Assembly (NCBI RefSeq): GCF_002245895.1
Contig: NZ_NPJZ01000001.1
Location: 744,001 to 808,000, forward strand
DNA length: 64,000 nt
Source of the DNA: Rhodococcus sp. OK302
GTDB taxonomy: Bacteria > Actinomycetota > Actinomycetes > Mycobacteriales > Mycobacteriaceae
Direction of reading: 5' to 3'
The notes under the pieces are model-generated. The model was not told the origin of the DNA. It saw only the letters and a list, made by a program, of their open reading frames with translations, and ran no database searches. The position numbers and the translations under genes were made by a program. Position 1 is the first letter of the stretch, and every line of letters starts with the position of its first letter. Below are positions 10,648 through 58,321 of the stretch, piece after piece.

Positions 10648-11851
10648 GCGGCGTAGCGGGCCAATCGAGCAGCTTTGCCCCGAGCACTGCTGCGTGCAGC
10701 GCAAAACTGTCGTTGGGGTCGTTAACGTTCTGACCGGTGAGCTCGCGGATGCGGTCCAGCCGATACGTCACCGCGCGCACCGATAGATGCAGATCACGGG
10801 CAGTCTTCGCGGTGTTTCTTCCGGCCGCGAAGTAGGCGAGCAAGGTATCCACCATCGGCGCTGCCCCTCCCCGCGCTTCGAGCAGCGGAGTGAGGAGTGT
10901 CGAGATCAGATCGGTGACTGCCGGTCGGTCATTGACCAGAACGCGGTAGACCAGAAGATCGCGGGCGTCGATCACCGGGGAATTCAAGGACAGCCGCTGA
11001 GCCAGGTCATGGGCGTCAAGCGCTTCGCGGTACGACGCCACCACCCCGGCCGCTGTGGTGCGCGGCCGTCCGACGGCTATCTGCCAAGCTCCGTCCATCG
11101 TTCGTCGTTGCAACTGCACTCGTCCGTCGTCACTGGTTCTGGGACCGAGAGCCGACCGAATGCCGTGCAGCACATGGTCCATAGCGTCCCGATCGGGAGC
11201 GGCGAAGACCACCACGAGATTGCCACTCTTACTGGCGACCAGAGCATCCGAGTCACCCTTGCTGCCGAGGACTGCGCGCTCGACGGCCTTGACCAAGGAA
11301 CTGTCGTCGGTGAAATCACGGTCGGCCGTTACTACAGCCACAGCGTGGGGTCCGGTGAGGTGGAGACCGAATCCTGAAGCGCGACCAAGCAATCCGACAA
11401 CATCCGCGCCACCGGTCAATAAGTCGTCCACGAATTCGCGTCGAGCAGACACCTGCGAACGCACGAGTGTGCGTCGGGCGAGCTGGTATCCCTCTGCCAG
11501 TTCGGCCACCGCGTCGTCCACGGCGCGCAACATCACCTCACCGGCAGCAACTACTGCATTCGGATCCGATTGTGCGGCAATAACAGCGGGCAACTCACGC
11601 CACAGACGCCACGCCGAGGACAGGTACAGATCAAGCAGGGCCCGGAGTGCGACGCCCTGGCCCGCGGCTTCTTCCCCCCGCGCGCGGAAACGATGGAGAG
11701 CCCGACGCTGTAGCGGCTTACCCTCACAGACCGCGACACTGAGCACTTCGAGGAAGTCGCCCAGCAGCTCGACGGGCAGGCCACCGGCGTCGTCTGCCCC
11801 TGCGACGGCTACCCGCCGAAGTACATCTGTGGGCACACCGGTTCCGTTCAC
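10640..11851 (-). CDS. PucR/CdaR family helix-turn-helix regulator
   Basis: 403 residues. The C-terminal PucR-type helix-turn-helix is clear: LLAYFAAGRNTAKTARDLHL, then SVRAVTYRLDRIRELTG. The central region is the CdaR GGDEF-like domain and the N-terminus is helical. Members of this family typically activate purine, sugar-acid or amino-acid catabolic genes in response to a metabolite. It lies 25 bases downstream of the acetyl-CoA hydrolase/transferase on the same strand, so the two are probably cotranscribed and that gene is the likeliest target. Confidence 0.88.
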   Translation of the reverse strand: MNGTGVPTDVLRRVAVAGADDAGGLPVELLGDFLEVLSVAVCEGKPLQRRALHRFRARGEEAAGQGVALRALLDLYLSSAWRLWRELPAVIAAQSDPNAVVAAGEVMLRAVDDAVAELAEGYQLARRTLVRSQVSARREFVDDLLTGGADVVGLLGRASGFGLHLTGPHAVAVVTADRDFTDDSSLVKAVERAVLGSKGDSDALVASKSGNLVVVFAAPDRDAMDHVLHGIRSALGPRTSDDGRVQLQRRTMDGAWQIAVGRPRTTAAGVVASYREALDAHDLAQRLSLNSPVIDARDLLVYRVLVNDRPAVTDLISTLLTPLLEARGGAAPMVDTLLAYFAAGRNTAKTARDLHLSVRAVTYRLDRIRELTGQNVNDPNDSFALHAAVLGAKLLDWPATPLS

Positions 11852-28013: not shown

Positions 28014-29789
28014 ATGACAGCCCACAACGAAACAACCCGACTGACCCGCCGCGGATTCATCGCCGCAGCCGCCGGAGCCAGCGCAGTCGCCGCCACCACC
28101 CTCACCGGCACCTGGACCCCCGCCTACGCCATCCCCGCCGGAAGCAGCAGCCTCGGATCCGCCGGCCCCGTCCCCACCCTCCCCACACCCCCCGCATTCC
28201 CCGAAGGCATCGCCCTCTACCAACAGGCCTACCAAAACTGGTCCAAAGAAATCATGCTCGACACCATCTGGACCTGCGCCCCCAAAACCCCCGAAGACGC
28301 AGTCCGATTGGCTAACTGGGGCCACGCCAACGGCTACACCATCCGCCCCCGCGGAGCCATGCACGGCTGGACCCCCCTGACCATCGTCAACGGCGCCCCC
28401 CGCGACAAAGTCATTTTGGCTGACACCATGGTGCATTTGAACTGGGTCAACGTCGACGCCGGCGGACCCGTCCCCACCGTCACCGCCGGACCCGGCGCCA
28501 CCCTCGACGCCATCACCACCGCGTTGCAGGCTCAAGGCCTCGGCTTCGCGAACCTCCCCGCCCCGGGCGTGCTCTCCATCGCCGGCTGCCTCGCCGTCGA
28601 CGCCCACGGCGCAGCCCTGCCCGCCGAAGGCGAAGCCCACGTCCCCGGACAAACCTTCGGTTCCCTCTCCAACCTCGTCACCTCCCTGACTGCAGTGGTC
28701 TGGAACGGCACCGAATACGCATTGAAGACCTACGACCGCGCCGACACCGCGATCCGCCCGCTGCTGACCAACCTCGGCCGCACCTTCATCACCGCCGTCA
28801 CATTGCAGGCCTCCCCGAACTACCGCCAACGCTGCGTCAGCTACACCGACATCGGCTGGCAGGAACTCTTCGCCGCCAAGGGCACCCCCGGACGCACCTT
28901 CGAAAACTTCGTCCGCGAGAACGGCCGCGCCGAAGCCATCTGGTACCCCTTCACCGAGAAGCCGTGGATGAAGGTGTGGTCCCTCGAACCCACCAAACCC
29001 GCCACCTCCCGTGAAGTCACCGGCCCCTACAACTACGTCTTCTCCGACAACCTCCCCGAACCGCTGACGGACATGATCGCCGCGATCAACGCCGGAAACC
29101 CCGGTATTGCACCCGCATTCGGGCAGATGATGTACACCACCACCGTCGCCGGCCTCGCCGTCACCAACGCCAGCGACATCTGGGGCTGGTCCAAAGACGT
29201 TCAGTTCTACATCAAAGCCACCACCCTCCGGTTGACCGAAGGCGGCGGCGCCGTCATCACCTCCCGCGCCAACATCGGCCAGGTCATCCACGACTTCACC
29301 CAGTGGTACAACGGCCGCATCGAGCACTACCGCTCCCTCGGCCAGTTCCCCCTCAACGGCCCCGTCGAAATCCGCTGCTGCGGCCTCGACCAAGACGCCG
29401 ACGTCCAGGTCCCCTCCGCCGGCGCCCCCACCATCTCCGCGATGCGCCCCCGCCCCGACCACCCGGAATGGGACACCGCGATCTGGCTCAACGTCCTCGG
29501 CGTTCCCGGCACGCCCGGCATGTTCGCGTTCTACCGCGAAATGGAACAGTGGATGCGCAGCCACTTCAACGACGAGAACGCGACCTTCCGCCCCGAATGG
29601 TCCAAGGGCTGGGCGTTCAGCAGCGAACTACCGTACAAGGACGCCCAGATCATCGAACACGACCTGCCGCAGACCTACCGTGACGGTGTCCCCGTCAACA
29701 ACAACTGGGACACCGCCAACGCGGCGTTCAACCAGCTCGATCCGCACAAGGTATTCAGCAACACCTTCCTGAACCAGCTTCTCCCCTGA
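28014..29789 (+). CDS. Class II (VAO-type) cholesterol oxidase, Tat-exported
   Basis: 591 residues. A twin-arginine signal (LTRRGFIAAAAGASAVAATT, ending near AYA) directs folded export. The mature protein matches Brevibacterium sterolicum class II cholesterol oxidase: IRPRGAMHGWTPL carries the histidine that binds FAD covalently, LPAPGVLSIAGCLAVDAHGA is the FAD fold, and IRCCGLDQDADV, VLGVPGTPGMF and FRPEWSKGWAF are family blocks. It oxidises cholesterol to cholest-4-en-3-one, making H2O2. Codon use is extreme (long runs of CCC and GCC), unlike the AT-rich neighbours. Monocistronic, with a strong hairpin behind. Confidence 0.93.
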   Translation: MTAHNETTRLTRRGFIAAAAGASAVAATTLTGTWTPAYAIPAGSSSLGSAGPVPTLPTPPAFPEGIALYQQAYQNWSKEIMLDTIWTCAPKTPEDAVRLANWGHANGYTIRPRGAMHGWTPLTIVNGAPRDKVILADTMVHLNWVNVDAGGPVPTVTAGPGATLDAITTALQAQGLGFANLPAPGVLSIAGCLAVDAHGAALPAEGEAHVPGQTFGSLSNLVTSLTAVVWNGTEYALKTYDRADTAIRPLLTNLGRTFITAVTLQASPNYRQRCVSYTDIGWQELFAAKGTPGRTFENFVRENGRAEAIWYPFTEKPWMKVWSLEPTKPATSREVTGPYNYVFSDNLPEPLTDMIAAINAGNPGIAPAFGQMMYTTTVAGLAVTNASDIWGWSKDVQFYIKATTLRLTEGGGAVITSRANIGQVIHDFTQWYNGRIEHYRSLGQFPLNGPVEIRCCGLDQDADVQVPSAGAPTISAMRPRPDHPEWDTAIWLNVLGVPGTPGMFAFYREMEQWMRSHFNDENATFRPEWSKGWAFSSELPYKDAQIIEHDLPQTYRDGVPVNNNWDTANAAFNQLDPHKVFSNTFLNQLLP

Positions 29790-29840
29790 TCAGTCGAGTA
29801 GAAATGCTGGGCTGAAACAGATTTCAGACGAACAACCGAC

Positions 29841-29884
29841 AACCGAATGCCCTGATGAGGTGCCATCCACCAGGGCATTCGGTT
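29841..29884 (+). terminator. Hairpin terminator after cholesterol oxidase
   Basis: AACCGAATGCCCTG (29841-29854) pairs perfectly with CAGGGCATTCGGTT (29871-29884) around a 16-base loop. No U run follows, so it may terminate or stabilise the transcript end. Confidence 0.65.
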
Positions 29885-30194
29885 CGGCGCGTCAAGAAGA
29901 AGCAACCTATCTGCTCGCAGGTGAATGTCCTTGATTCAACACACTGCAGTGTCCAAAAGAATTGCTTCGAAATTTCGTTGACAAATTTTCCCAAATCGAC
30001 CACTGCACAATGGATTTGCCCTATCCTGATCCACATGAGCCGATAAAGACCGGCGCATGATCCACAAGTCCGTTTCCCACCTCACGAGGTATCTCACGGC
30101 GTGAGTTCAAAATCTGGGAACCTCTGGCTCCTAGTTAACAAACCACACAGAGGCTGGGACGCATTCCGGTCGCCGATCAGGGGAGGTGAAGTCA
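29885..30194. other. Promoter region of the lanthipeptide locus
   Basis: 310 bases without a gene, between the cholesterol oxidase terminator and lanKC, with AT-rich tracts. A TTGACA hexamer occurs at 29978-29983, but no well-spaced -10 element was found, so the promoter is not placed. A small CTCAC-GGC-GTGAG hairpin lies near 30090-30105. Confidence 0.4.
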
Positions 30195-32867
30195 ATGGAT
30201 ACGAAGTATCTCGAATACGCCCTGGCTGACAGGCGATTCTACGATCGACCCCACCAAGATCAGACGCAGCGTCTCAGTGCCAACGTCCGACGATACGAAC
30301 TGACTGACCTCGAATCGGATGTCGAGTGGAAATCCGTGGAATCCCATGGATGGCAACATCATCAGCCGTCGTTGTCAGTGAAACTTCCGGATCAAGGGTG
30401 GAAGATCCACTGTTCGGCAACTTTGCAGAATGCCCAGGCAATCTTGGACATAACATCCAAGTACTGCATCGAACGGCACTACTCGTTCAAATTCCTGCCC
30501 AACTCTGCAGCGATGCTCCGTTCCAATATGAAGTACGCACACCGTGGAGGCAGCGGAAAATTCATCACCATCTACCCTCCCGATACAGAGACGTGCGAGA
30601 GCCTCCTCAATGAACTGAACGAGCTCCTTCAAGGATTCGACGGACCATACATCCTCTCCGACCTCCGATGGCAGGATGGTCCCCTCTACGTCAGGTACGG
30701 GGGATTCGCGCTCAAATACGTTCGTGACCAGTACGACGAACTCGTGCCTGCGATCACCGATCCCGACGGCCGTCTCGTCCCTGACCTCCGCCAGCCCGCA
30801 TTCCGGCCGCCCACTTGGGTAGAAGTTCCGGACTTCATCGCGAAACAAAAGGAACTTCTCCACGCGGACGGCGACCACCAGACGTTCCCGTACAAAATGA
30901 TCGACGCTCTCCATTTCTCCAACGGCGGCGGCGTGTACAAAGCCCTCAACGGCAATGGTGCCGAGATCGTCGTCAAGGAGGCACGGCCGTTCGCCGGAAT
31001 CACACCGGATGGCCGCGACGCAGTTTCGCGCCTCCAGCGTGAACGAGATATTTTGCAGATGCTGAACGAATCACCGTATTTTGCAGGCATACTCGACTAT
31101 TTCGAGCATTCGAGCCACCACTTCTTGGTGCAGGAATACGTTCACGGCACGACTCTCAATAAAGAACTGGTCGAACGTAATCCGCTGGTGCGCGCCAACG
31201 AAACACAGCTGGACCGAGCGACATACCGCGATTGGGCTCTTGGCATCGTCAACGAGGTTCAATCTGCCATCGAGCACCTGCACAGTCAGCGGATCGTGTT
31301 CGGTGACCTCCACCCCAACAATATCCTGGTCCTGCCGGACAACTCGATCAAGATCATCGATTTCGAGATGTCCTACGTCGAAGGGCAAGACGAGATAGTG
31401 CAGCCGATGGGCGCTCCTGGTTTCACACCTGTGGACGGACGAACCGGGTTGTCGGCAGATCTGTACTCTCTTGCCTGCCTGAAAATTTCGATATTCTTGC
31501 CACTCACCGTGTTGCTCGATCTCAGCGCCGAAAAAATTGAGCAACTGGTCGCGGAAGCACACGAACTTTTCGAACTCCCCGATAGCTACTGCCAGAGCAT
31601 TCTCGAGGTACTTCGTCCGCGACTAAACGCGAATAACGCTGGCATCCATACCCTCCGAGCTATGGAGTCTATCCAGCAATGGAGTGTCCACGACGCGGAC
31701 GGCGCTGAAAAGATCCAGTCACTGATCGACCTTGGCATCCGTGAGTCGCGGCAACTCTCGCGCTCAGATCGCCTTTACCCCGGGGACATCGCACAGTTCT
31801 CGGGAGATTCCTTGAGCATCGCTCACGGACCGTGCGGAAATCTCCTGACTACCGCCATGAGCGAGGAAGATAAGCGCCTCGCGACGGAATGGGTTGACCA
31901 CACGATTCAGCGCACCCCGAACGTCAGCGTGGGTTTGTACGACGGATTAGCCGGTGCTGCAAGCACCTTCGAACGCCTCGGGCTGCACAGCACCGCCGAT
32001 ATGTGGGCCGAGAGAATCTATCGAGCTCCGTTCGAACTGCTCCCGTCCGAGCTCTTCAGTGGACTCGCCGGCATCGGGCTCTACCTTCTAGAACGGCACC
32101 ACCGGAATGGTGACCCTGCCTCACTCGACGCGGCCAATCGCATCCGACAGGTCATGCACGACCGTCTACAAGTCCCCAACAGTTCCATTCAATCCGAAAA
32201 TGGGCAATTGCACGTCGCCACCGGAAAGGGTGGCCTCATGCATGGAGCGAGCGGACAGTCACTCTTCTGGATACGCGCGTACGAAGTCCTCGGGCACAAA
32301 CAAGATCTTGACGACGCCAAAGAAGCACTCGAACAAGATATTTCGCTGCTCATCGACTGTCCCGACGGATCACTCCAGCTGAACGAAGGATGGCGACGAC
32401 TGCCATATATCGCCAGTGGGTCTACCGGAGTCGGGCTAGCGATCATGCGCGTAGCGTCACACAGCCCGGAGCCTCGGTACGAGGACTTGCTCGTGAAGAT
32501 CAGCAATGCCGCGACCGCAGAATTCTGCATCCAGTCCAATCTGTTCAACGGGCGCGCTGGATTCATCTACTACCTACTCAAACTCCTCGAAAGTGGTCGG
32601 GACTACGGCCAGACGCGCGAGCACCTCGACGCTCAGGTCAGACGCTTGCAACTGCACGCGATTCCACACGGGGCTGGAATCCACTTTCCTGGCGAACAGT
32701 TACTCCGACTGTCCACGGACTGGGCAACCGGTTCGGCCGGCGTTTCCAACATGCTTGGCCTCTACGCCGACAGCCTCCGAGGAACACATGAAGCTACTGC
32801 CCCGTTCCTCGGAATGGAGATTCCATTGCACCCCCCGAAACTGAACGCCGAGCGTTCAGTCGCCTAG
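30195..32867 (+). CDS. lanKC: Class III lanthionine synthetase LanKC
   Basis: 890 residues in three domains. The phospho-Ser/Thr lyase (about 1-215) has GWKIHCSAT, FKFLPNSAAMLRSNMKYA and RGGSGKFITIYPP. The protein kinase (about 230-470) has the lysine in VVKEARPF, the catalytic loop VFGDLHPNNILV and the metal aspartate in IIDFEMSYV. The LanC-like cyclase (about 545-890) keeps GLAGAAS and LMHGASGQS, but the Cys and Cys-His zinc ligands are replaced (YIASGSTGVG near 737, NLFNGRAGF near 782). Lack of zinc ligands defines class III (labyrinthopeptin/SapB type), not class IV. The ATG at 30195 has GGGGAGG upstream. The precursor gene follows. Confidence 0.93.
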   Translation: MDTKYLEYALADRRFYDRPHQDQTQRLSANVRRYELTDLESDVEWKSVESHGWQHHQPSLSVKLPDQGWKIHCSATLQNAQAILDITSKYCIERHYSFKFLPNSAAMLRSNMKYAHRGGSGKFITIYPPDTETCESLLNELNELLQGFDGPYILSDLRWQDGPLYVRYGGFALKYVRDQYDELVPAITDPDGRLVPDLRQPAFRPPTWVEVPDFIAKQKELLHADGDHQTFPYKMIDALHFSNGGGVYKALNGNGAEIVVKEARPFAGITPDGRDAVSRLQRERDILQMLNESPYFAGILDYFEHSSHHFLVQEYVHGTTLNKELVERNPLVRANETQLDRATYRDWALGIVNEVQSAIEHLHSQRIVFGDLHPNNILVLPDNSIKIIDFEMSYVEGQDEIVQPMGAPGFTPVDGRTGLSADLYSLACLKISIFLPLTVLLDLSAEKIEQLVAEAHELFELPDSYCQSILEVLRPRLNANNAGIHTLRAMESIQQWSVHDADGAEKIQSLIDLGIRESRQLSRSDRLYPGDIAQFSGDSLSIAHGPCGNLLTTAMSEEDKRLATEWVDHTIQRTPNVSVGLYDGLAGAASTFERLGLHSTADMWAERIYRAPFELLPSELFSGLAGIGLYLLERHHRNGDPASLDAANRIRQVMHDRLQVPNSSIQSENGQLHVATGKGGLMHGASGQSLFWIRAYEVLGHKQDLDDAKEALEQDISLLIDCPDGSLQLNEGWRRLPYIASGSTGVGLAIMRVASHSPEPRYEDLLVKISNAATAEFCIQSNLFNGRAGFIYYLLKLLESGRDYGQTREHLDAQVRRLQLHAIPHGAGIHFPGEQLLRLSTDWATGSAGVSNMLGLYADSLRGTHEATAPFLGMEIPLHPPKLNAERSVA

Positions 32868-32884
32868 ACAACCCGTCGAGGGTT
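32841..32884 (+). promoter_or_regulatory. Two consecutive hairpins between lanKC and the precursor gene
   Basis: CTGAACGC-CGA-GCGTTCAG (32841-32859, eight perfect pairs) lies in the last lanKC codons. AACCC-GTCGA-GGGTT (32870-32884) lies just after its stop. Together they could slow or trim the transcript between enzyme and precursor, allowing more precursor than enzyme to be made. Confidence 0.4.
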
Positions 32885-33014
32885 AACGGAGAGGAGTCCA
32901 ACAGAGAAAGGATGAAGCAAGAAGGACACTTCCCCAGCGAAGTACTGCATCACCGACCTTGTCCGACATGGATGAGGATCGATCCCAAGTTAGTGATATG
33001 AAAGGATATTCAGA

Positions 33015-33122
33015 ATGAAGTCTGTACTCCAATTTCAGGAGATCGCTGAATCAGGAAACCAGAAGCACCAAATCGACGACGGACCTTATTCCTGGAGCGG
33101 CTTAAGCACGATATTCTGCTAA
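33015..33122 (+). CDS. lanA: Class III lanthipeptide precursor peptide (LanA)
   Basis: A 35-codon gene 147 bases after lanKC, with AAAGGA eight bases before the ATG. The leader begins MKSVLQFQEIAESG, with the hydrophobic L-x-F-Q element where class III leaders have LxLQ (LabA, RamS), the lyase/kinase recognition helix. The C-terminal core ends GPYSWSGLSTIFC. S28-x2-S31-x3-C35 is exactly the labionin-forming Ser-x2-Ser-xn-Cys motif and has the same spacing as the second ring of SapB (SSLSITTC). Only one ring is predicted. The leader/core boundary is probably near residues 20-24. No second precursor was found. Confidence 0.9.
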   Translation: MKSVLQFQEIAESGNQKHQIDDGPYSWSGLSTIFC

Positions 33123-33330
33123 CTCTTTATTTGAAGGATTCACAGTTCACTTTCGGCTGGATTTGATCAACGTCTTTCGCCACAGAGAATGGTCACACCC
33201 GAGGGGTCCAGTAATTAATAAACCCCGATCTCACAGCGATTGCACGGATGCGACCGAAGCTTCCGAGGTGAATCGCTTGGCGCACAGCGTTACCGAATCA
33301 CACTTCGATAAAGGTTCATCCATGAGACCG

Positions 33331-33380
33331 ACCCGCGAGCAGTTGATCGCCGATCGACGACCAACTGCTCGCGGGTTTTC
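33331..33380 (+). terminator. Intrinsic terminator of the lanthipeptide unit
   Basis: ACCCGCGAGCAGTTG (33331-33345) pairs perfectly with CAACTGCTCGCGGGT (33362-33376) and is followed by TTTT. It lies about 210 bases after the precursor stop; nothing coding was found in between. Confidence 0.88.
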
Positions 33381-33398
33381 AACCTGCCGGTTTCGCAC

Positions 33399-33406
33399 AG
33401 TTTTCC
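33399..33406. repeat. Left 8-bp target-site duplication (AGTTTTCC)
   Basis: AGTTTTCC directly abuts the left inverted repeat of the ISL3 element and is repeated exactly at 34865-34872. Eight-base duplications are characteristic of ISL3-family insertion. Confidence 0.9.
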
Positions 33407-33430
33407 GGCTCTTCCGTTTCTAGAGTGCAT
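33407..33430. repeat. ISL3 element left inverted repeat
   Basis: Starts GGCTCTTCCG and ends GAGTGCAT; the transposase stop codon is within it at 33420-33422. Confidence 0.88.
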
Positions 33431-34730
33431 TGATTGATTCCCGGAGCTGACCCGAGTGAATCAGTGACCGCAAGATGTAGTGATCGAGATTGCGGAAACC
33501 CAGCGCGATACCTCGTAGATACTCGAGCCGGCCGTTGATCGCCTCGACAGGACCATTCGATGCACCGGTATCGAAGTAGGCCAGGATCTCCTTCCGCCGT
33601 TTCCAGAGACTGCGACCGAGCTGAGCCAACTCCGCAAGTTCCTTCGGGACACCGGATTTGATGCGATTGAGGACCTTGTACATCGCCAACTTCCCCGCCC
33701 GCTTGTCCGAATCATCGTACGCGGCAACAAGTTCCTGGTAGACGCGTTCGGTGACCTCGACATCGATGTGTTCCTCGTCCGCGAACACCGCCTCAAGTCG
33801 CGCATTCTGTTTGTCGGTACGCAACGTCTCTCGGGTCAGCAGCACCCGTTTGATGCCGTACAACGGGTCACCGGACCGGCCGCGGTGACCGAGCGTGACC
33901 TGCTGGACCCGCTGCCGACACACGGTCAACTTCTCCGCAGCCAAGTGCACTACGTGGAAGGGATCCATCACCGTCCTGGCCTGCGACAATACGTCTTTGG
34001 CGGCCGAGTGGTAGCCGGCGAACCCATCCATCGACACGATCTTCACCCGGTCCCGAAACACCTGATCACGCTCACGCAGCCAGTCCTTGAGCGCCGCAGC
34101 GGAACGGCCGGGAACCATGTCGAGCAACCGGGCCGGGCCGGTACCGTCGATGACCGGAGTCAGGTCCACGATCACCGTCACAAAGCTCGGATCACCTTGC
34201 CCGCGTACATGTTTCCACTTGTGTTCGTCCACACCCAGGACCCGAACTCTGTCGAGGTGGCCGGGCTGGTCGTAGACCAGGTGCCGGACCGTGGACAGGG
34301 CGAGGGAGTTCACCACGTCCCAACTCAACCCCAACGCCGTGGCCACCGCCGAAACCGGCATCTTGTCGCAGGCGAGGCGTCCGAGGATCCAGCCGGCGGT
34401 CCGGCGGGTGGTGCAGGCTTTCGAGGCGGCCACCGTGTCGATGCGTTGACGGAACACCGCCACCTCGCAGGCATCGTTGCCGCAGGTGAATCGGGGTAGC
34501 CGGATGTGAAGGCGGGTGGGATGACCGACGACGGGGAGGTCGGCGAGGGTGCGGGTGACGTGGTCGCGGAGTCGGCCAGGTTTGCCGCAGGACGGGCACG
34601 TCGGGTCGTGTTCGACGGGTCTGCATTCGATGTGGGTGAAGCGTTCGGCGATGGCGGCGCCGGTGATGGTGACGCCGAGTTCGACGGTTCGGCAGATGGT
34701 GTCGGCGACGAGGTTAGTAGTCTGGTTCAT
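33420..34730 (-). CDS. ISL3 family transposase
   Basis: 436 residues. The N-terminal zinc-finger-like CPSCGKPGRLRDH is followed by the helix-turn-helix region, then the DDE catalytic domain: GVDEHKWKHVRG (first Asp), IVSMDGFAGYHSAA (second Asp), and the C-terminal SNGPVEAINGRLEYLRGIA (Glu). Insertion of a helical segment before the Glu is normal for ISL3. The ATG at 34730 gives the family N-terminus; an upstream extension to 34826 would start inside the element's flank and is unlikely. Intact, so probably active. Confidence 0.93.
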   Translation of the reverse strand: MNQTTNLVADTICRTVELGVTITGAAIAERFTHIECRPVEHDPTCPSCGKPGRLRDHVTRTLADLPVVGHPTRLHIRLPRFTCGNDACEVAVFRQRIDTVAASKACTTRRTAGWILGRLACDKMPVSAVATALGLSWDVVNSLALSTVRHLVYDQPGHLDRVRVLGVDEHKWKHVRGQGDPSFVTVIVDLTPVIDGTGPARLLDMVPGRSAAALKDWLRERDQVFRDRVKIVSMDGFAGYHSAAKDVLSQARTVMDPFHVVHLAAEKLTVCRQRVQQVTLGHRGRSGDPLYGIKRVLLTRETLRTDKQNARLEAVFADEEHIDVEVTERVYQELVAAYDDSDKRAGKLAMYKVLNRIKSGVPKELAELAQLGRSLWKRRKEILAYFDTGASNGPVEAINGRLEYLRGIALGFRNLDHYILRSLIHSGQLRESINAL

Positions 34731-34840
34731 GGGTCCTGTGGTGTGTTCGGATTCGGTGTAGGAACCTTCATCCTCACATCCCAGGACCCTCTGTATGCCT
34801 CTACATCTTGTGTCTGCTCGGATCACCGGAAATCGAGTTC

Positions 34841-34864
34841 ATGCACTCCGGATCCGGAACAGCC
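34841..34864. repeat. ISL3 element right inverted repeat
   Basis: On the minus strand it starts GGCTGTTCCG and ends GAGTGCAT, matching the left repeat at 19 of 24 positions. Confidence 0.88.
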
Positions 34865-34872
34865 AGTTTTCC
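34865..34872. repeat. Right 8-bp target-site duplication (AGTTTTCC)
   Basis: Exact copy of 33399-33406, directly outside the right inverted repeat. Confidence 0.9.
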
Positions 34873-34945
34873 GCAACGCCAATTGCACAGCATCCTCGAC
34901 GGAACTCCGAAAGAATTCTTAGCTGCAGAACACTGGCCATCTCCG

Positions 34946-35620
34946 TCACTCCTGAGATCGAGCATCAACCAGACCTGACCTGTAGGCCCAGATCGCGGTT
35001 TGAAGTCGACTCTTCGTTCCCACCTTGTTCGATATGCGCCCAAGGTGAGACTTAATGGTACTAACCTCGATGCTTAGTTCTACTGAGATCTCGTCGTTGC
35101 TCAGACCCCGGGCAAGACAGTGAACAATCTCTGCTTCCCGAGCGGTCAATAGGATCGAATCACTTTCAACTGGTTGCACATCCTTCACCTGCACCACTGA
35201 TCGGCGCCCGAATTCGCGCGTCAAACTACCAAGCAACGTAGGACTGATAGTAGTACCACCTTTGTGCGCATTGTAGATAGCCTGCGCCAACTCACTTGGA
35301 CCGGCATCTTTCAGGATGAATCCCGAAACACCCAGATCGATCGCCGAATACAAATAGTCATCGTGCCCGAATGTGGTGATGATTATTATCTTTTGCATTG
35401 AATGATTCGAGAGAATAATCTTCGCTGCAGCCAGTCCATCACCGTCCGGCATTCGAATATCCATGAGAATGACATCCGGGTTGAGCTGACCGGACTGATA
35501 TACAGCATCCGGTCCGGAGTTCGCCTCTCCAACTACAACTATATCTTCATAGTTTGTCAAAAACAGCCTTAATCCGCGCCGAACTATAGGCTGATCGTCG
35601 ACTATAAGGACCGTGATCAT
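34946..35620 (-). CDS. NarL/LuxR-family response regulator
   Basis: 224 residues. The receiver domain has LIVDDQPIVRRG (acidic pair), the phosphorylated aspartate in DVILMDIRMPDGDG, the switch threonine in IIITTFG and the lysine in GFILKDAG. A LuxR-type helix-turn-helix (LTAREAEIVHCLARGLSNDE, then STIKSHLGRI) closes the protein. Its ATG overlaps the stop of the histidine kinase upstream by four bases (ATGA), so the pair is coupled. It lies next to the lanthipeptide locus across the IS element, making that locus a plausible target. Confidence 0.92.
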   Translation of the reverse strand: MITVLIVDDQPIVRRGLRLFLTNYEDIVVVGEANSGPDAVYQSGQLNPDVILMDIRMPDGDGLAAAKIILSNHSMQKIIIITTFGHDDYLYSAIDLGVSGFILKDAGPSELAQAIYNAHKGGTTISPTLLGSLTREFGRRSVVQVKDVQPVESDSILLTAREAEIVHCLARGLSNDEISVELSIEVSTIKSHLGRISNKVGTKSRLQTAIWAYRSGLVDARSQE

Positions 35621-36924
35621 TGGTAGATAAACCCTTCGAGTGGGATTTTTGCTTGCACTTTCCAACGACCCTCTTCCGAAGGTCCGGCATGGAAGACACC
35701 GCCCAGATACTCGGTGCGTTCCCTGAGTCCGACCAGTCCGAGCCCCTGCCCATGCATGTCGCGGTCAAGCGACACTCCCACATCGTTTTCGACCATTATT
35801 TTCAGACTTCCCGAATCTCGTCTTATCGCCACAGCAACGCGGCTTCCATACGCGTGCCGAAGGACATTCGACAGGCTTTCTTGCACTATTCGATAGCAAG
35901 ATACCTGTATAGCACTATCAATATCCGACAGGTCACTACCAATATCGACCGTGATTGTAAGGCCCGATCTTTGACATCCATCAACCAGACTCATAACCGA
36001 TTGAATGTTCGGCTGGGGGCTTTGCGATTCGGTAGGTCCAATCCGCAGGACCTCAACAAGTTGACGAAGGCTCCGAAGAGCACGTTCACCCTGATCAACA
36101 ACCCCGAAGAGTAAATCCTTCACCTCTCCTGGCGCAGTCTCAAAGATCTCGGCTGCCGCTTTGCCTTGTATTATTACAGCCGTCAGATGGTGCGCTGAGA
36201 CATCATGAAGCTCACGAGCCATACGCGCTCTCTCATCAGCCAAAGCATTCTGAACATCCACATCTCGCTCCTGCTTCAACTGCCGAATCTGCACCTCATC
36301 GACCAACTTGTGACGCCGCTGATTCCGCACAACCTTCCCCAGTGCAATAAAAATTCCATAGCTCATCAGAACATTCATTACTGGTGAGAACAACAAATCT
36401 CCGAATGCGCCGGATGAGAGTGGCAAATTTAGATCATTGATTCGAAGATTGACGCTGACGAGAATGTCAGCACTGAGTCCGGCCAGGACTGCCAGATAGA
36501 ATGTGCGCCCTTCTGTTCTAATTGAAAGCATCAGAATCGAAACCCAATATAAAGGAGTCACTGCCGGACCACGATTGCCAAGAACCAGTGCCAGCACAAC
36601 CATCGCAAAAACACTTACAGCAAAAAGCGCGACTGGGTGCCATCTCGCCCTCACCAGTGCAACCGTATTGATTGCAATAACCAGTATCGGACCGAGAAGT
36701 TGCCCATAATCGAGTTGAGAATCGGAATCTTTCGGAAAAGTATCTCCGATCAACGTCGCGACAACCATAAACACAACACTCAGTACGCCGACAAATAGAA
36801 CACCTACGCGACCCGTTTTCGAGAGTTGTGAGCCTTGACTGCTCCCCCACCAACCCCACTCAGCTTTCGGCTCTGCCTCATCGTTCTCTGGTTCGTCGAT
36901 TGCGGTGGAGTAGGTCACCGTCAC
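35617..36924 (-). CDS. Sensor histidine kinase (HisKA_3, NarX/DesK type)
   Basis: 435 residues. An N-terminal cytosolic tail is followed by about five or six membrane helices (about 35-200), then the dimerisation/phosphoacceptor helix RMARELHDVSAHHLTAVIIQ (His near 240) and an HATPase domain ending GLGLVGLRERTEYLGGVF. With no large extracellular loop, it probably senses something in or at the membrane. The start is GTG; a second GTG two codons later has better spacing to GGAGGGA. It is coupled to the response regulator and is a paralogue of the next kinase. Confidence 0.9.
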   Translation of the reverse strand: MTVTYSTAIDEPENDEAEPKAEWGWWGSSQGSQLSKTGRVGVLFVGVLSVVFMVVATLIGDTFPKDSDSQLDYGQLLGPILVIAINTVALVRARWHPVALFAVSVFAMVVLALVLGNRGPAVTPLYWVSILMLSIRTEGRTFYLAVLAGLSADILVSVNLRINDLNLPLSSGAFGDLLFSPVMNVLMSYGIFIALGKVVRNQRRHKLVDEVQIRQLKQERDVDVQNALADERARMARELHDVSAHHLTAVIIQGKAAAEIFETAPGEVKDLLFGVVDQGERALRSLRQLVEVLRIGPTESQSPQPNIQSVMSLVDGCQRSGLTITVDIGSDLSDIDSAIQVSCYRIVQESLSNVLRHAYGSRVAVAIRRDSGSLKIMVENDVGVSLDRDMHGQGLGLVGLRERTEYLGGVFHAGPSEEGRWKVQAKIPLEGFIYQ

Positions 36925-37067
36925 GTCCCTCCGCGAATTGTTGATCCCGGTAGCGGACTCAAGCTATCAAATCGGACAGACACCCAAGATGAATTCGCCT
37001 GATTCAGTCACAACAGATCTCAAACATCCCGAGGCACGGCTCGACTGCGCCGACAACGCGGGAGGGA

Positions 37068-38348
37068 TCATCCAACAATTCGGCCGGCCGTAGGGATGAC
37101 TGCTTTTACTGTCCAGCCGTTGCCGAGGGGTCCGGCGAGGAGTGTGCCGCCCAACAGCGTTACTCGTTCCCGCATTCCTGAAATCCCCAAGCTCTGACCG
37201 TCGGTAGCAGCAGCACCCATACCCGCACTATTGGTGATGTCGAGGCGGATTGAGTCACTCTCGCATCGCACACTCACCTTCGCGGAACTCTGCGGCGCAT
37301 GGCGGAGAACATTCGACAATGCTTCCTGCACAACACGATAGGAAGACAGTTGGACTGCGCTATCGATTTCCTCGAAAGCATCCTCCAGATCGAGTTCCAA
37401 CAGCGGAATAGACGCCCGACAGCCCTCGACCAGTTGCGGAATATCGGCGATCATCGGCTGTGGATACCTGGGATCCGTCCCACCGATACGCAGAATCCCC
37501 ACAGTCTGGCGCAAACTGTTCAACGCGCGGTCGCCATGGTCGATCACGCCCCCGAGCAATGCCTTCGCCTGATCCGGATTGGACAACAACAACTTGTCTG
37601 CCGACTTCGCTTGGATGAGCATTCCGGTGAGGTGATGTGCGGCAACATCGTGCAGTTCACGCGCCATGTTCTGGCGCTCCTCTGCGATTGCGTCACTCAG
37701 TCGCGCTTCGTGATTCAACTGCATTTGCTCCATAGCCATGGAACTCGCGGAAGTTTGAGATCGGTGTCTCGAGACAACCATCCCGATCGTGATCATGACT
37801 GCGTAGCTACTCGCGATGTTCACAACCGGCGCGAACAGCAGAATCGGCAAATCCCCGATCGGAACCTGAGAGAGCGTCATACCCTCGCCGACCAACTTGA
37901 GTTTGGTTGTCAGCAATAGATCCGCTGTCATCCCGAGCATCACCAGCAACGCCAAGCGACTTCCGCTGGCCTTCCCAGCCAAGTAAACAATCGCACACCA
38001 ATACAGCGGAGTAGCAGCCACTCCGCGGTCCTCCAGTAGGAGTCCGAGCGCCACCGTTCCGGCGAGCGTCAACAAATACATCCACACTGGGTACCTACGA
38101 CGGAAGCATGCAACGACTGTCAATGCCACCAGGATTGTCGCTGTCCCTGCGAGAACCCCCGGGTTGGCAAGACTCTGGCCTCCTGAGTACCCCTTGCCGC
38201 CGAATAGACTACATGTTGCACCGAAAACCCAGACCGCGCTAAGGATTCCGGCAATAGTCGCCAACACAGCCGGATTCCGCGATAGAAGCTCTCGAGCTTC
38301 CAGCGAAATCTTCGCGAGCAACGAAGGTTGCTGACGAATGGTCACCAC
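37068..38348 (-). CDS. Second sensor histidine kinase, paralogue without adjacent regulator
   Basis: 426 residues with the same layout as the neighbouring kinase: about six membrane helices, the phosphoacceptor helix MARELHDVAAHHLTGMLIQ (His near 229) and an HATPase domain ending LGISGMRERVTLLGG. A GTG at 38348 is chosen because GGAGA lies six bases upstream; a second GTG follows at once, and the open frame extends to 38429 without such a site. No response regulator accompanies it, so it may signal to the regulator at 34946 together with the first kinase. A 143-base gap separates the two kinase genes. Confidence 0.88.
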   Translation of the reverse strand: MVTIRQQPSLLAKISLEARELLSRNPAVLATIAGILSAVWVFGATCSLFGGKGYSGGQSLANPGVLAGTATILVALTVVACFRRRYPVWMYLLTLAGTVALGLLLEDRGVAATPLYWCAIVYLAGKASGSRLALLVMLGMTADLLLTTKLKLVGEGMTLSQVPIGDLPILLFAPVVNIASSYAVMITIGMVVSRHRSQTSASSMAMEQMQLNHEARLSDAIAEERQNMARELHDVAAHHLTGMLIQAKSADKLLLSNPDQAKALLGGVIDHGDRALNSLRQTVGILRIGGTDPRYPQPMIADIPQLVEGCRASIPLLELDLEDAFEEIDSAVQLSSYRVVQEALSNVLRHAPQSSAKVSVRCESDSIRLDITNSAGMGAAATDGQSLGISGMRERVTLLGGTLLAGPLGNGWTVKAVIPTAGRIVG

Positions 38349-38684
38349 TTGCCATCTCCCCCTTGTGTGACGGACGGTCGAAATTTTCGCATCCACACTC
38401 CCGCGAATTAAGCTCATATTCGCATGCAAACAACAAATCTATGGGCATTACCAGAATACATGCGAATGCACTAGTACTTTTGGAGGATAATTATCGAATC
38501 TCAACCGAACTAATAATTCTGGTCAATCCTATTCAATGCCGACACCCCGAATTTCTCGCACACGAACGGTAGCGTCCTGACCATGAAGACTGCCTTTCTC
38601 TCGGTTGTTCGGGCCGTCCCATGATCTTGGTGACCTGGCGACAATGCCGCACTCACATCATGTGGGCGCAACACAGTCTGCGCA
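38349..38684. other. 336-base intergenic region
   Basis: No supportable gene; AT-rich on the kinase side. It contains ACTAGTACTTT (38470-38480), an 11-mer also found upstream of the cholesterol oxidase at 27686-27696. Promoters for the divergent kinase and membrane-protein genes must lie here but were not resolved. Confidence 0.45.
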
Positions 38685-39230
38685 ATGGTCGCCACACTCG
38701 TCATGTTCCTGATCGCACCCGTGGTGTTGACAGCACTGCTCCGGCCTCACTACGCAGAACCGGACACGAAGGTGCAGTCCATTAGCGGCTACGCCCGAGC
38801 GTCCGAGTACGCGCCGTCCCCCTATTACACCGTCGACGCGAGTTGGGTTGTCGGAGCTGGATTCACCGATCGCGACGGCAACATGATCACGGCGGACAAT
38901 TCACTCTGCGAGAGCACGGATTACGCCAATGTCCGAGCTGGCGGAACTACCCACAAGGACCGTGCCCGCGCGCAGATCGAGTATGCGGAACGGATCTTGG
39001 AATTCGACTACTGCCTCAGGCAGCAAGGCATCGACCACTACGAAATCCTCTCCCATCCGCAGAGTCGGTACTGGCAGTTCCAAGCCATCGAAACTGCACT
39101 GATGCTGCTGTGCGCTGGATTGACGTCTCTGCTCGCGAATACTCGAAGACCTCAGATTCCCGCTCTACGCACCAAAGCATCTGTCGCAGAAGGAGATACC
39201 GCACCAAGCATCCGCAACAGCCCGGCATAA
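38685..39230 (+). CDS. Hypothetical membrane-anchored protein
   Basis: 181 residues. The N-terminus (MVATLVMFLIAPVVLTALLR) is a signal anchor and a second hydrophobic segment lies near residues 135-155 (ETALMLLCAGLTSLLA), leaving a polar extracytoplasmic domain of about 110 residues with two cysteines. I do not recognise a family. In-frame stops just upstream rule out a longer N-terminus, and no strong ribosome site precedes the ATG. The last 79 bases overlap the convergent SDR gene, which is unusual; the C-terminal tail may not be conserved. Confidence 0.55.
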   Translation: MVATLVMFLIAPVVLTALLRPHYAEPDTKVQSISGYARASEYAPSPYYTVDASWVVGAGFTDRDGNMITADNSLCESTDYANVRAGGTTHKDRARAQIEYAERILEFDYCLRQQGIDHYEILSHPQSRYWQFQAIETALMLLCAGLTSLLANTRRPQIPALRTKASVAEGDTAPSIRNSPA

Positions 39231-39994
39231 CGCGGATACAACTCGATCGGCCGAGTCTCGATAGCCCTCACTATCCACGACGCCGCTTGATCCGCCGTCA
39301 AAGCCGGCTGACTCACGTAGTCGGAGGTAGGCGCAATCATCGGCGTACGGATAAGCGGAAACTGCACCGTACTGACGTCGACACCCGTGCCATGACATTC
39401 AGCTCCAAGGCTGCGGCCGAAAGCACTGAGCGCCGATTTCGACGCGTGATAGGCGCTGAACCTGGGCATCACACCGGCGCTCACACCCCACGTCCCCACA
39501 TTGACGATGTGCCCGGAATGAGCTTCGAGCATCGAGGGCAACAGCCGCAACGTCAACCGCGCCGGCCCAAAGTAGTTGAGCGCCATCGTGCGCTCATAAT
39601 CATGGAACCGCTCCACTGAGTCGGCAGCAGTCCGGCGGATCGAGCGGCCCGCGTTGTTGATCAAAACATCGACGGCCCCGAATTGATCGGCAATGGCGTC
39701 GGCAAGTTCGTCGACGCTCTCGCCTTTCGAGAGATCCGCCGGCAAGACGTGCGCCAATCCACCCTCCCGTTGGATGCCGCGCTGCACTCGCTCGAGTTCT
39801 TCGACGCCGCGGGCGATCAGAATCAACTCGGCACCCCGGGCGGCCAACGTGCGCGCGGTTGCCTCACCGATTCCGGACGACGCCCCGGTCAGCACGATGG
39901 TCTTGTCCGAGAAGCCAACAGGAGGCGCCGGAAGTAGCGAACGGAGTCGCGTCGGCGGACTCAACACAAAATTGCTGAAAAGACTTCTGATCAC
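39152..39994 (-). CDS. SDR family NAD(P)-dependent oxidoreductase
   Basis: 280 residues. A 28-residue basic/hydrophobic N-terminal extension precedes the cofactor motif VLTGASSGIGEATARTLA. NNAG is present, and the active site is NVGTWGV (Ser replaced by Thr/Trp context) and YHASKSAL. The reductase likely acts on a lipid or steroid-like hydroxyl or ketone, but the substrate is unknown. The canonical serine ahead of the YxxxK seems altered (VGTWG), so activity may need checking. It diverges from the diiron oxygenase gene. Confidence 0.82.
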   Translation of the reverse strand: MIRSLFSNFVLSPPTRLRSLLPAPPVGFSDKTIVLTGASSGIGEATARTLAARGAELILIARGVEELERVQRGIQREGGLAHVLPADLSKGESVDELADAIADQFGAVDVLINNAGRSIRRTAADSVERFHDYERTMALNYFGPARLTLRLLPSMLEAHSGHIVNVGTWGVSAGVMPRFSAYHASKSALSAFGRSLGAECHGTGVDVSTVQFPLIRTPMIAPTSDYVSQPALTADQAASWIVRAIETRPIELYPRYAGLLRMLGAVSPSATDALVRRAGI

Positions 39995-56367: not shown

Positions 56368-57129
56368 GTGAATAGCCCCCGAGAGGACCACGCTCCATTA
56401 GCGCCGCTACCTCATGCCGGACACATCTTCGAAGCCTCCTGGCCTGTCCGCACCGGCGATATCCACAGCGATCGACGCCTCCGCCTCGATGCGATAGCCC
56501 GCTACCTTCAGGATGTGGGTTTCGACAATCTCATAGCGTCCGACGCGCTGGATATACATCCGACGTGGGTTGTCCGCCGCACAGTGATCGATGTAGTCAG
56601 GCCGATCAGGTGGCCTGATCGGGTGCATCTGCGACGCTGGTGTACCGGGATATCCCGCAAATGGTGCTCCATGCGGGTACGTATCGACTCCGACGACGGA
56701 GGCCTGGTGGAAACTGAAGGCTTCTGGATCAACGTCGACCCGAAAACCGGGATGCCCGCGCGGATAAGCGAACGGTTCACTCGAGAACTCGACTCCACTG
56801 TCGTTGACCAGCACCTGCACTGGCATCGCTGGATTACCCCGGAGGCGAGTGACGCGCCGGAACGATCTTTCCCATTGCGCGCCAGCGATTTCGATCCGTT
56901 CGACCATGTGAATAACGCGGTCTACTGGCAGCCGGCCGAAGAAGCAATGGGAGAAGATCTGCGAGAGAAGCCATTTCGATCGATCATCGAATATTCACAG
57001 CCCATTACTCGAGGTGAGCAGGTAACCGTATGCGAGCGTGCGGACGGCAGAACCCTCGACATCGACGTGGATGGGGAAACTCGTGCATCTGCGCGCTGGT
57101 TTCCACTCGCGCAGGTCTTTCAGGGCTGA
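56368..57129 (+). CDS. Acyl-ACP thioesterase family protein
   Basis: 253 residues with two hot-dog domains. The first has LRLDAIARYLQDVGFDNL, then WVVRRTVIDVVRPIRWPD; the second has ASDFDPFDHVNNAVYWQPAE, the Asn-His containing active-site stretch of FatA/FatB-like thioesterases. It would release fatty acids from acyl-ACP or hydrolyse acyl-CoA. Start is GTG with only a weak ribosome site. It ends overlapping the convergent CHAP gene by ten bases. Confidence 0.87.
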   Translation: MNSPREDHAPLAPLPHAGHIFEASWPVRTGDIHSDRRLRLDAIARYLQDVGFDNLIASDALDIHPTWVVRRTVIDVVRPIRWPDRVHLRRWCTGISRKWCSMRVRIDSDDGGLVETEGFWINVDPKTGMPARISERFTRELDSTVVDQHLHWHRWITPEASDAPERSFPLRASDFDPFDHVNNAVYWQPAEEAMGEDLREKPFRSIIEYSQPITRGEQVTVCERADGRTLDIDVDGETRASARWFPLAQVFQG

Positions 57130-57755
57130 AGCTTTCCGAACCCGACGACTGCGGAATCCGACGCCCAATCCAGGTCGTGAACCCGCACCTTGCCGAACTC
57201 GTTGCCGCCGACAGTAGTCGCGTTGTCACCATCAACCGCTACAACGATATTGGTGTGCTGCCCAGCCCATCGTGAACTGTCGTAGATCACGACGTCACCC
57301 ACCTCGGGCGTGTAGCCGCTACCGTTTTCGACGTAGGCACCGATACCTTGGTAGTACTCCTGGAGCGTATAGACGCCGGGGATACGCCAACTCCCCGAAT
57401 TGGGGTTGGACAGTGGGCGGCCCGCTTCACGCATGATCCAGCTGACAAAGTCTGCACACCATTCTTCGTCGATACCGTCTGAGTAGTAGGTACCCGGACG
57501 GTCCTGCCCTTGCTCCGCGTCCAGAAGTTGCAGCACCGCCGTTTGATCGGCCGATAATGCACTGGTGTCGATGGCCGGGAAATCTGCGGTATCCCAGGGC
57601 AAATAGCGAGACGGCGCGATCCACACCACAACGATCCCTACGGCGACGACAGCAAGCGCCAGAGCAGTAGCAATCCACAACACCACTCTGCTGCGGCTGC
57701 GGGCTTGTTGGCTCAGTGGTTCGCTCACCCCAACGAGTGTGCCAGCTCGGGCCAT
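57120..57755 (-). CDS. Membrane-anchored CHAP-domain protein
   Basis: 211 residues. One N-terminal membrane helix (VVLWIATALALAVVAVGIVV) leaves the remainder outside. The CHAP amidase/peptidase domain has the cysteine in EEWCADFVSWIMREAG and the histidine in RWAGQHTNIVVAVDGDN. It probably cuts peptidoglycan stem or cross-link peptides. The true start may be a GTG at 57728, since no ribosome site fits the ATG at 57755. Confidence 0.83.
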   Translation of the reverse strand: MARAGTLVGVSEPLSQQARSRSRVVLWIATALALAVVAVGIVVVWIAPSRYLPWDTADFPAIDTSALSADQTAVLQLLDAEQGQDRPGTYYSDGIDEEWCADFVSWIMREAGRPLSNPNSGSWRIPGVYTLQEYYQGIGAYVENGSGYTPEVGDVVIYDSSRWAGQHTNIVVAVDGDNATTVGGNEFGKVRVHDLDWASDSAVVGFGKLQP

Positions 57756-57862
57756 GTCAGAACGGCGGTTGATCTGCCGGCGATGACGGAGCCTCGAACT
57801 GCGGTATGTCGGAACCGTGGCCTACCGTGAGCAGAACACCTCCGGAGACAGGAGAACACCCG

Positions 57863-58321
57863 ATGCGTGATGGATTTCGCTTACCGGGCTACGGCGGCGC
57901 CGCCGTCTTCCTGCGCAGCCATGCTGTCCCAGCACGAATGCTCGAGACCGATGCTCCGAGCCTCGTATTCGACGTGGGTTTACTGAGTCCCGACGAGTAC
58001 AACCAGTATCTGGGGCGACCCGTCAGTGAGGGATTTGTCGAGCGCCTCGCAACGTTCTTCTTCCATGCAGCCGCCGACTTCCATCCCGAGCAGTCACTGC
58101 CGGTATTCACCGATGAAACCCTCGGACTCGCAATCTCCGCCCGTTCCAGCACTGACCTCCGGGTGGAACTTGAATTCTCACTCTCCGAGGATGCTGATTC
58201 CGATGACTCGGCACGAGACGAATTGAACTTCGAGACAAGCAGAGTCGTCCTTGCAGCGTCAGCTCAATCGGTCTGCCAACTCAGCGGCCGGGCAAGCACC
58301 CACTTCGACGGCGAGGTATGA
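57863..58321 (+). CDS. Hypothetical protein, first gene of a coupled pair
   Basis: 152 residues from the ATG at 57863 with GGAGA nearby upstream. Soluble, acidic, beginning MRDGFRLPGYGGAAVFLRSH. I see no catalytic motif and do not recognise a family. The stop overlaps the start of the next gene by four bases (ATGA), so the two are translated together and the products probably interact. Confidence 0.72.
   Translation: MRDGFRLPGYGGAAVFLRSHAVPARMLETDAPSLVFDVGLLSPDEYNQYLGRPVSEGFVERLATFFFHAAADFHPEQSLPVFTDETLGLAISARSSTDLRVELEFSLSEDADSDDSARDELNFETSRVVLAASAQSVCQLSGRASTHFDGEV

Follow-up and report, generated by a model that had tools for sequence, protein, structure and literature searches.

Does the short open reading frame that follows a lanthipeptide synthetase gene (lanKC) in Rhodococcus sp. 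OK302 encode a real precursor peptide and, if so, what is to be made of the finding that this frame (lanA) and the neighbouring genes for a response regulator (RR) and a histidine kinase (HK1) differ far more from those of Rhodococcus sp. ARC_M6 than lanKC does? Class III lanthipeptides are common in actinobacteria, and as a precursor lanA is a new member of an already known type. The unusual part of the locus is the divergent lanA-RR-HK1 segment; without a meaning there, lanA is just another class III precursor. We examined the locus within a window of 64,000 nucleotides (the whole stretch of DNA that was analysed), and the features referred to below are collected in Table 1.

Table 1. Positions of the features of the lanKC-lanA locus and its right-hand neighbours, numbered within the window.
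Feature	Position	Strand	Remarks
Near-perfect palindrome TCTCACGGCGTGAGT, possible regulator (RR) site	30092..30106	.	5' of lanKC; weak statistically
lanKC, class III lanthionine synthetase (lyase-kinase-cyclase), 893 aa	30186..32867	+	NCBIfam, Pfam and structure matches
Ribosome-binding-like GAAAGGA	33000..33006	+	8 nt 5' of lanA start codon
lanA, 35-residue class III lanthipeptide precursor	33015..33122	+	
Ring motif Ser28-x2-Ser31-x3-Cys35 (lanthionine or labionin)	33096..33119	+	invariant in four homologues
Terminator-like hairpin and T run, between convergent lanA and RR	33331..33376	.	two 23-nt arms, 91% complementary
ISL3-family insertion element, between lanA and RR	33407..34864	-	transposase 33420-34826
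RR, NarL-type response regulator with LuxR-type DNA-binding domain	34946..35665	-	PF00072, PF00196
HK1, multi-span HisKA_3 histidine kinase, candidate receptor	35617..36924	-	PF07730, PF02518
HK2, second HisKA_3 histidine kinase	37068..38429	-	Pfam domains
Membrane-protein gene remnant, internal deletion; candidate exporter part	38621..39230	+	

The frame put forward in the preliminary description proved to be real, and the ribosome-binding-like sequence 5' of it is present as described. The 35-codon translation (MKSVLQFQEIAESGNQKHQIDDGPYSWSGLSTIFC) ends in WSGLSTIFC, and the start codon lies 147 nt past the lanKC stop. Homologous precursors beside lanKC were looked for in related strains and three were found (ARC_M6, KBS0724 and genome G003), all three with GAAAGG or AGAAGG 5' of the gene. 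Alignment of the four homologues gave 15 invariant positions, including L5, F7, Q8, Y25, W27, S28, S31 and C35; of the four hydroxyl residues that the core places close to the ring (Ser26, Ser28, Ser31 and Thr32), only Ser28 and Ser31 are invariant. A profile built from the four lanA sequences placed the family in 4/28 genomes of the genus (E 6e-24 to 2e-22), each time beside lanKC; these matches include the four source sequences, and so give location and not independent proof. The next matches within the 28 genomes were at E 0.2 or worse.

A pattern combining the leader with [ST]x2[ST]x(2-5)C was fitted by lanA alone among the 803 window ORFs of 25-80 aa, and by 0/4193 ORFs of that size in the parts of 63 lanKC loci that lie clear of the synthetase gene (606,864 bases in all); directly 3' of lanKC it was matched in 55 of the 63 (drawn from the 80 loci fetched, the 17 shorter ones being excluded). 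Together with the profile search of the genus, these counts rule out that lanA is a chance ORF. A pattern search of the 80 lanKC loci (the best 80 of more than 594 in a scan of genome contigs) gave a lanA-like ORF near lanKC in 75, mostly within a few hundred bases 3', some of them possibly spurious; ARC_M6 (L028) was among the five misses because the pattern misses its F-Q leader. The arrangement of lanKC followed by lanA is the normal class III layout. In Cellulomonas telluris (L030, after 8634) the pattern search returned three lanA-like ORFs 3' of lanKC. The lanA product scored below the NCBIfam cut-off for class III precursors (NF038154; 12.7 bits vs 22), as did those of ARC_M6 (15.2) and KBS0724 (14.0), and the G003 peptide gave no match; against the SapB/AmfS model (NF033212) lanA had no match and KBS0724 lanA scored 13.2 vs a cut-off of 25. 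lanA is easily missed, yet it is a real gene, and we are close to certain that it encodes a class III lanthipeptide precursor. No peptide identical to its product was met in the genomes searched here.

The class III assignment of LanKC was confirmed at the level of sequence. LanKC scored 880.8 bits against NF038151 (cut-off 575) and fell below the cut-off of the class IV model (384.2 bits vs 650); its Pfam domains are RamC_N, Pkinase and LANC_like, and its best sequence matches among solved structures were the LanKC entries 8sap, 8sao and 8sam. The kinase catalytic residues K264, D374, N379 and D392 are invariant across the 22 listed homologues that were picked by hand for alignment. The cyclase segments that align with 8sap (PYIASGS and NLFNGRAG, with positions matched by eye) contain no Cys or His, so that the domain is predicted to be without zinc ligands, as in class III; the residues of ThurKC that stand in for such ligands have been described (PMC10604976). 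A LanKC search of plasmids returned 34 records, all of <60% identity. An order-wide search of 397 genomes found LanKC in 56 at E 1e-150, and those besides that of the window are only 36-42% identical, so that no further close relatives were available for the divergence test given below.

The palindrome TCTCACGGCGTGAGT upstream of lanKC has a single exact match in the window and, with up to 3 mismatches, 11 matches vs 9.5 expected; it is retained in ARC_M6, has one change in G003 and is not clearly present in KBS0724. No upstream box shared by lanKC and HK2 was seen by eye in the alignments. A conserved regulator box is not claimed, because the palindrome is statistically weak and there is no such shared box. 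Rfam gave 0 matches over 29780-39300, and a consensus promoter/terminator scan over 29780-33460 (terminator loop limit 8) found 0; the hairpin between lanA and RR was missed by that scan.

A lanthionine plus a dehydroalanine has the same mass as a labionin, and water-loss counts are therefore undecisive for labionin. The preliminary description had read the core as a labionin motif. A class III precursor with a single ring motif, paired with its own lanKC, is supported, and the fit to Ser-x2-Ser-x3-Cys is exact (Ser28, Ser31 and Cys35); labionin as stated is not supported, since class III peptides with Sx2Sx3C carry lanthionine in some cases and labionin in other cases (Walker et al., PMC7268733). 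We reject labionin as a settled outcome because the motif is ambiguous, and regard it as a possible form of the lanA product. The spacing had also been likened to that of the second SapB ring, as a pointer to a morphogen- or labyrinthopeptin-like product; SapB and AmfS contain two lanthionines each (PMC13380574), and a SapB-like ring is therefore no argument for labionin, and an activity of either sort is no more than a candidate property of the peptide. The leader element L-x-F-Q, which had been called typical of the class, is present in lanA; it is not the usual form, and we call it a variant because the usual class III element is L-x-L-Q (PMC7268733).

The locus resembles those of SapB and AmfS in having LanKC and then LanA on the same strand, a short leader with an LxLQ-like element, and the Sx2Sx3C motif. 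It differs in that SapB has two ring motifs whereas lanA has one, in the F that replaces L in the leader element, in that lanA lies below the NCBIfam cut-offs for SapB/AmfS and for class III precursors, and in the linkage of RR, HK1 and HK2. With labyrinthopeptin it shares the Ser-x2-Ser-x3-Cys motif and manufacture by a LanKC (PMC13380574); unlike labyrinthopeptin, lanA has a single motif and a single Cys, and labionin is only a candidate.

LanKC was present at E 1e-80 or better in 9/28 genomes of the genus. The cluster occupies one chromosomal slot in eight of these nine, with a thiolase gene on one side and SDR and AurF-like genes on the other (in ARC_M6 the left side is visible only as far as a cholesterol-oxidase gene, where the contig ends). 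The ninth genome, G003, has an intact lanKC-lanA-HK2 set without HK1 and RR on contig C36 (L022), which also carries IS110- and DDE-type transposase genes; at its slot (contig C91, L121) a deletion scar links lanKC, near codon 102, with the 3' portion of the gene for the membrane protein. Genome G007 (L168) gave no LanKC at E 1e-80 and has HK2 in the slot without RR or HK1, possibly as a remnant of cluster loss. Five other genomes have a LanKC that is 41-42% identical, and their slot contains neither RR nor a kinase gene; lanA ends SSLSFFC or SSLSFFCL in four of them, and in the fifth, G014, it is frameshifted before the ring motif (L026, ~11418-11530). These clusters, which we label R. erythropolis-like from named LanKC matches of ~42% identity, share with the window the flanking thiolase and SDR genes and the order LanKC then LanA; they differ in the low LanKC identity, in the core end SSLSFFC (Sx2Sx2C), and in having no RR, HK1 or HK2 in the slot. 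In genome G043 the SDR gene beside the slot (L122, 13803-14641) matches in two frames, and is broken or misassembled.

Scars and losses in relatives (the G003 slot, G007 and the frameshifted G014 lanA) raise the question whether the cluster is decaying in the window strain also, its peptide being no longer made or exported. The sole membrane-protein gene linked to the cluster in the window is internally deleted; ARC_M6 and G017 have it whole (369 and 361 aa respectively), G009 has fragments of it, and KBS0724 gave no hit. The protein had no family match at curated cut-offs, and an AlphaFold model of the ARC_M6 protein (mean pLDDT 50) was not used. The ISL3 element, which has no counterpart in ARC_M6, adjoins lanA; its 24-nt ends are inverted and 79% complementary, and an overlapping 10-nt direct repeat is found at both. 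Decay is nevertheless highly improbable: lanKC is whole with a pN/pS of 0.22, lanA retains its conserved residues, and KBS0724 is without the membrane-protein gene yet has lanKC, lanA, RR, HK1 and HK2. The element also lies beyond the hairpin 3' of lanA, and on that ground IS damage to lanA is rejected. The folding z-score of the hairpin is -6.7 in the window and -7.4 for its ARC_M6 counterpart, which has different stem bases.

Divergence of the locus from ARC_M6 is uneven. LanKC is 95% identical (0.947) in the two strains, and lanA differs at 40/105 bases with its synonymous sites saturated; the most differences found in any 105-nt stretch were 12 in lanKC and 20 in ~5 kb of the right flank. 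Followed in 150-nt steps, identity was 91-99% over 29506-32955 and 73-77% (aligned bases) from 32955 to the IS, a sharp break close upstream of lanA. The pS values were 0.114 for lanKC, 1.03 for lanA, 0.416 for RR, 0.458 for HK1 and 0.189 for HK2. Over 25 genes, from 30 kb to the window end, the median pS was 0.19, and RR and HK1 were the top two, followed by a value of 0.398; in this set, pairs with <100 aligned codons were dropped (lanA is too short), the frame of lowest pN/pS was retained where frames overlapped, and one frame included (63272-63889) has pN above pS and may be non-coding. Three genes at 57120-58920 also have a raised pS of 0.28-0.40. The divergence of RR and HK1 is thus raised but not isolated, and that of lanA is far outside; in this one strain pair the peptide and kinase genes (lanA, RR and HK1) have diverged beyond the genomic background.

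The pN/pS values vs ARC_M6 are ordinary throughout (lanA 0.22, RR 0.23, HK1 0.25, lanKC 0.22): the proteins are under normal constraint, and the excess affects amino-acid and synonymous positions equally. Diversifying selection on lanA or HK1 is therefore not supported, and the segment looks like one that was exchanged, or an old one long kept, rather than the site of accelerated protein change. Values of 0.22-0.25 also favour an alternative that we take to be about as likely as the signalling reading developed below, with a chance somewhat short of even: the product of lanA is a class III lanthipeptide of an ordinary sort, be it surface-active, morphogen-like or antimicrobial; the two-component system regulates the cluster in answer to a cue other than the peptide; and lanA-RR-HK1 came in by recombination from a more distant lineage, without any bearing on signalling. 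The abrupt identity break before lanA speaks for such a replacement, and the excess lanA divergence is centred on the window strain. lanA pS was 1.03 for window-ARC_M6, 0.95 for window-G003, 0.47 for ARC_M6-G003 and 0.55-0.70 for pairs with KBS0724, and the corresponding lanKC values were 0.11, 0.23, 0.22 and 0.59 (the last residue of G003 lanA was trimmed for the comparison). In pairs with KBS0724 lanA pS thus matches that of lanKC, and the large excess is in pairs with the window strain, so that a single replacement on the branch leading to this strain could account for most of the excess. In the ARC_M6-G003 pair lanA pS is raised about twofold over lanKC, on few sites; the synonymous contrast of leader and core in that pair (~13 and 8 sites) was not relied on. 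That lanA occurs without HK1 and RR in G003, and HK2 without lanKC in G007, is likewise consistent with recombination and no signalling, as is the fact that the relatives SapB and AmfS are morphogens (PMC13380574). Two observations fit it less well: lanA pS (1.03) is above that of the co-replaced RR (0.42) and HK1 (0.46), which argues for more than one event or for an older lanA, and HK1 is confined to genomes with this lanA (3/28).

lanA would also look replaced if ancestral tandem copies had been lost differentially, the window strain and ARC_M6 retaining different paralogues. Several class III clusters do have two or three tandem lanA-like ORFs (the Cellulomonas locus L030 is an example); however, the profile search found no second lanA copy in any of the four lanA genomes, and differential loss leaves unexplained both the raised divergence of RR and HK1 and the diverged intergenic DNA around lanA. 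We consider this explanation improbable.

RR, HK1 and HK2 are convergent to lanA, on the opposite strand. HK1 has five hydrophobic stretches at 36-196. At an identity of at least 64% it was found in 3/28 genomes of the genus, all of them with a lanA of the same family; it is present in three of the four genomes with this lanA and absent, together with RR, from the C36 copy of G003. The HK1 sensors (residues 40-205) of nine alleles were 0.45-0.68 identical in 35/36 pairs and 0.80 in one (KBS0724/c2659); the nine were drawn from eleven HK1-like rows, with contig 615672 and P. equi (38-41% identical) excluded. For window-ARC_M6 the sensor is 0.68 identical, the kinase half 0.88 and LanKC 0.947; for window-c50628 the sensor is 0.64 and LanKC 0.686; and for window-SRB_17 the kinase is 0.86 and the sensor 0.56. 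The identity of the HK2 sensor to that of the window drops with species distance (ARC_M6 0.87, G003 0.76, KBS0724 0.65), and for KBS0724 the sensor value compares with 0.82 for the kinase half. Since in HK2, too, the sensor has changed faster than the kinase half, the contrast in HK1 (0.68 and 0.88) is of no special kind; its size between two sister strains is what sets HK1 apart. An unlinked paralogous kinase compared with ARC_M6 gave a pS of 0.076 and a sensor 0.95-0.97 identical.

Strong homologues of HK1 and RR that adjoin lanKC were found in ARC_M6, Actinobaculum sp. oral taxon 183, Cellulomonas telluris and two Microbacteriaceae; in Actinobaculum, Cellulomonas and the two Microbacteriaceae the kinase and regulator genes are directly 5' of lanKC. 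Among the 80 LanKC loci, HK1-like matches occurred in 10 and RR-like matches in 36, many of the latter several kilobases off. The lanKC-linked kinases do not form one clade in a tree, in which branches are long. LanKC matches and HK1-like matches came from contigs of equal length (62956, 50628, 6690896 and 615672), which suggests, short of proof, that the two are linked in further strains. In Actinobaculum (L029, 1670-3763) a prolyl oligopeptidase gene (PF00326, PF02897) adjoins RR-HK-lanKC, and its product is a candidate leader protease.

The reading that we prefer, tentatively and by analogy, is that the lanthipeptide is most likely sensed by HK1, and that lanA-RR-HK1 are kept or exchanged as matched allele sets. 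LanKC would bind the LanA leader, dehydrate Ser28 and Ser31 and close the ring with Cys35 (a chemistry taken from the family). Leader removal and export would depend on a protease and an exporter encoded elsewhere; class III clusters are described as usually without a protease (PMC7268733, PMC8960859). The membrane domain of HK1 would then sense the peptide and signal to RR, which would control lanKC-lanA and perhaps other genes, and the alleles of lanA, RR and HK1 would move or persist as matched sets, in the manner of ComX/ComP pherotypes. Sensing by HK1, target genes, export, cleavage and functional exchange are all steps that we infer. In favour of this reading stand the excess divergence of lanA, RR and HK1, the HK1 sensor identity of 0.68 to ARC_M6 beside a LanKC identity of 0.947, the low divergence of the unlinked kinase, the restriction of HK1 to genomes with this lanA, the Com-like domain types, and the kinase and regulator genes next to lanKC in other genera. 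Against it stand the ordinary pN/pS values, the faster sensor of HK2, the agreement of lanA and lanKC pS in pairs with KBS0724, the C36 copy of G003 without HK1 and RR, the similar sensors of the KBS0724/c2659 pair, and the lack of a single clade of lanKC-linked kinases. If HK1 does sense the peptide, this would be the reason why the two travel together; joint divergence of peptide, RR and HK1 beside a near-constant synthetase would be the expected trace of the exchange of a self-recognition set.

In the ComX/ComP/ComA system both signal and sensor are variable, and the domain types of HK1 and RR are those of ComP and ComA (PMC4008528 for the Com side). The ComQXPA locus of Bacillus likewise joins a modifying enzyme, a short variable peptide, a multi-span PF07730/PF02518 kinase and a GerE-type regulator (PMC4008528). 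The differences are that the modifying enzyme there is the isoprenyl transferase ComQ whereas here it is LanKC; that the genes there are co-directional whereas kinase and regulator here are convergent; and that here the modifying enzyme is nearly constant and sensing is only proposed. The lanA locus may be said to work like ComX/ComP by analogy only; it is unrelated to it and is no ComQXPA member. The allele comparisons hint at a strain-specific peptide signal. A bolder form of the proposal, which we think rather unlikely, is that the lanthipeptide is a polymorphic pheromone, its core being exchanged and diversifying jointly with the HK1 sensor from one sister Rhodococcus to another; the synthetase would stay near constant because LanKC reads conserved leader and ring residues. 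Among the titles and abstract openings listed by a literature search that omits most subscription journals, none described a class III lanthipeptide of Rhodococcus together with its cognate kinase, or covariation of lanA and HK.

One account still treats the perception machinery for morphogenetic class III lanthipeptides as unknown (PMC13380574). With a peptide and an adjacent kinase that have both diverged well beyond their genomic background, the cluster offers a concrete candidate receptor, together with natural allele pairs. If the pheromone reading is true, the locus would be a lanthipeptide counterpart, in actinobacteria, of the ComX or agr pherotypes. Should the signalling idea fail, the locus would remain a clear example of precursor replacement next to a synthetase that has hardly changed, and as such it informs on the extent of change in the core that a single LanKC may accept.
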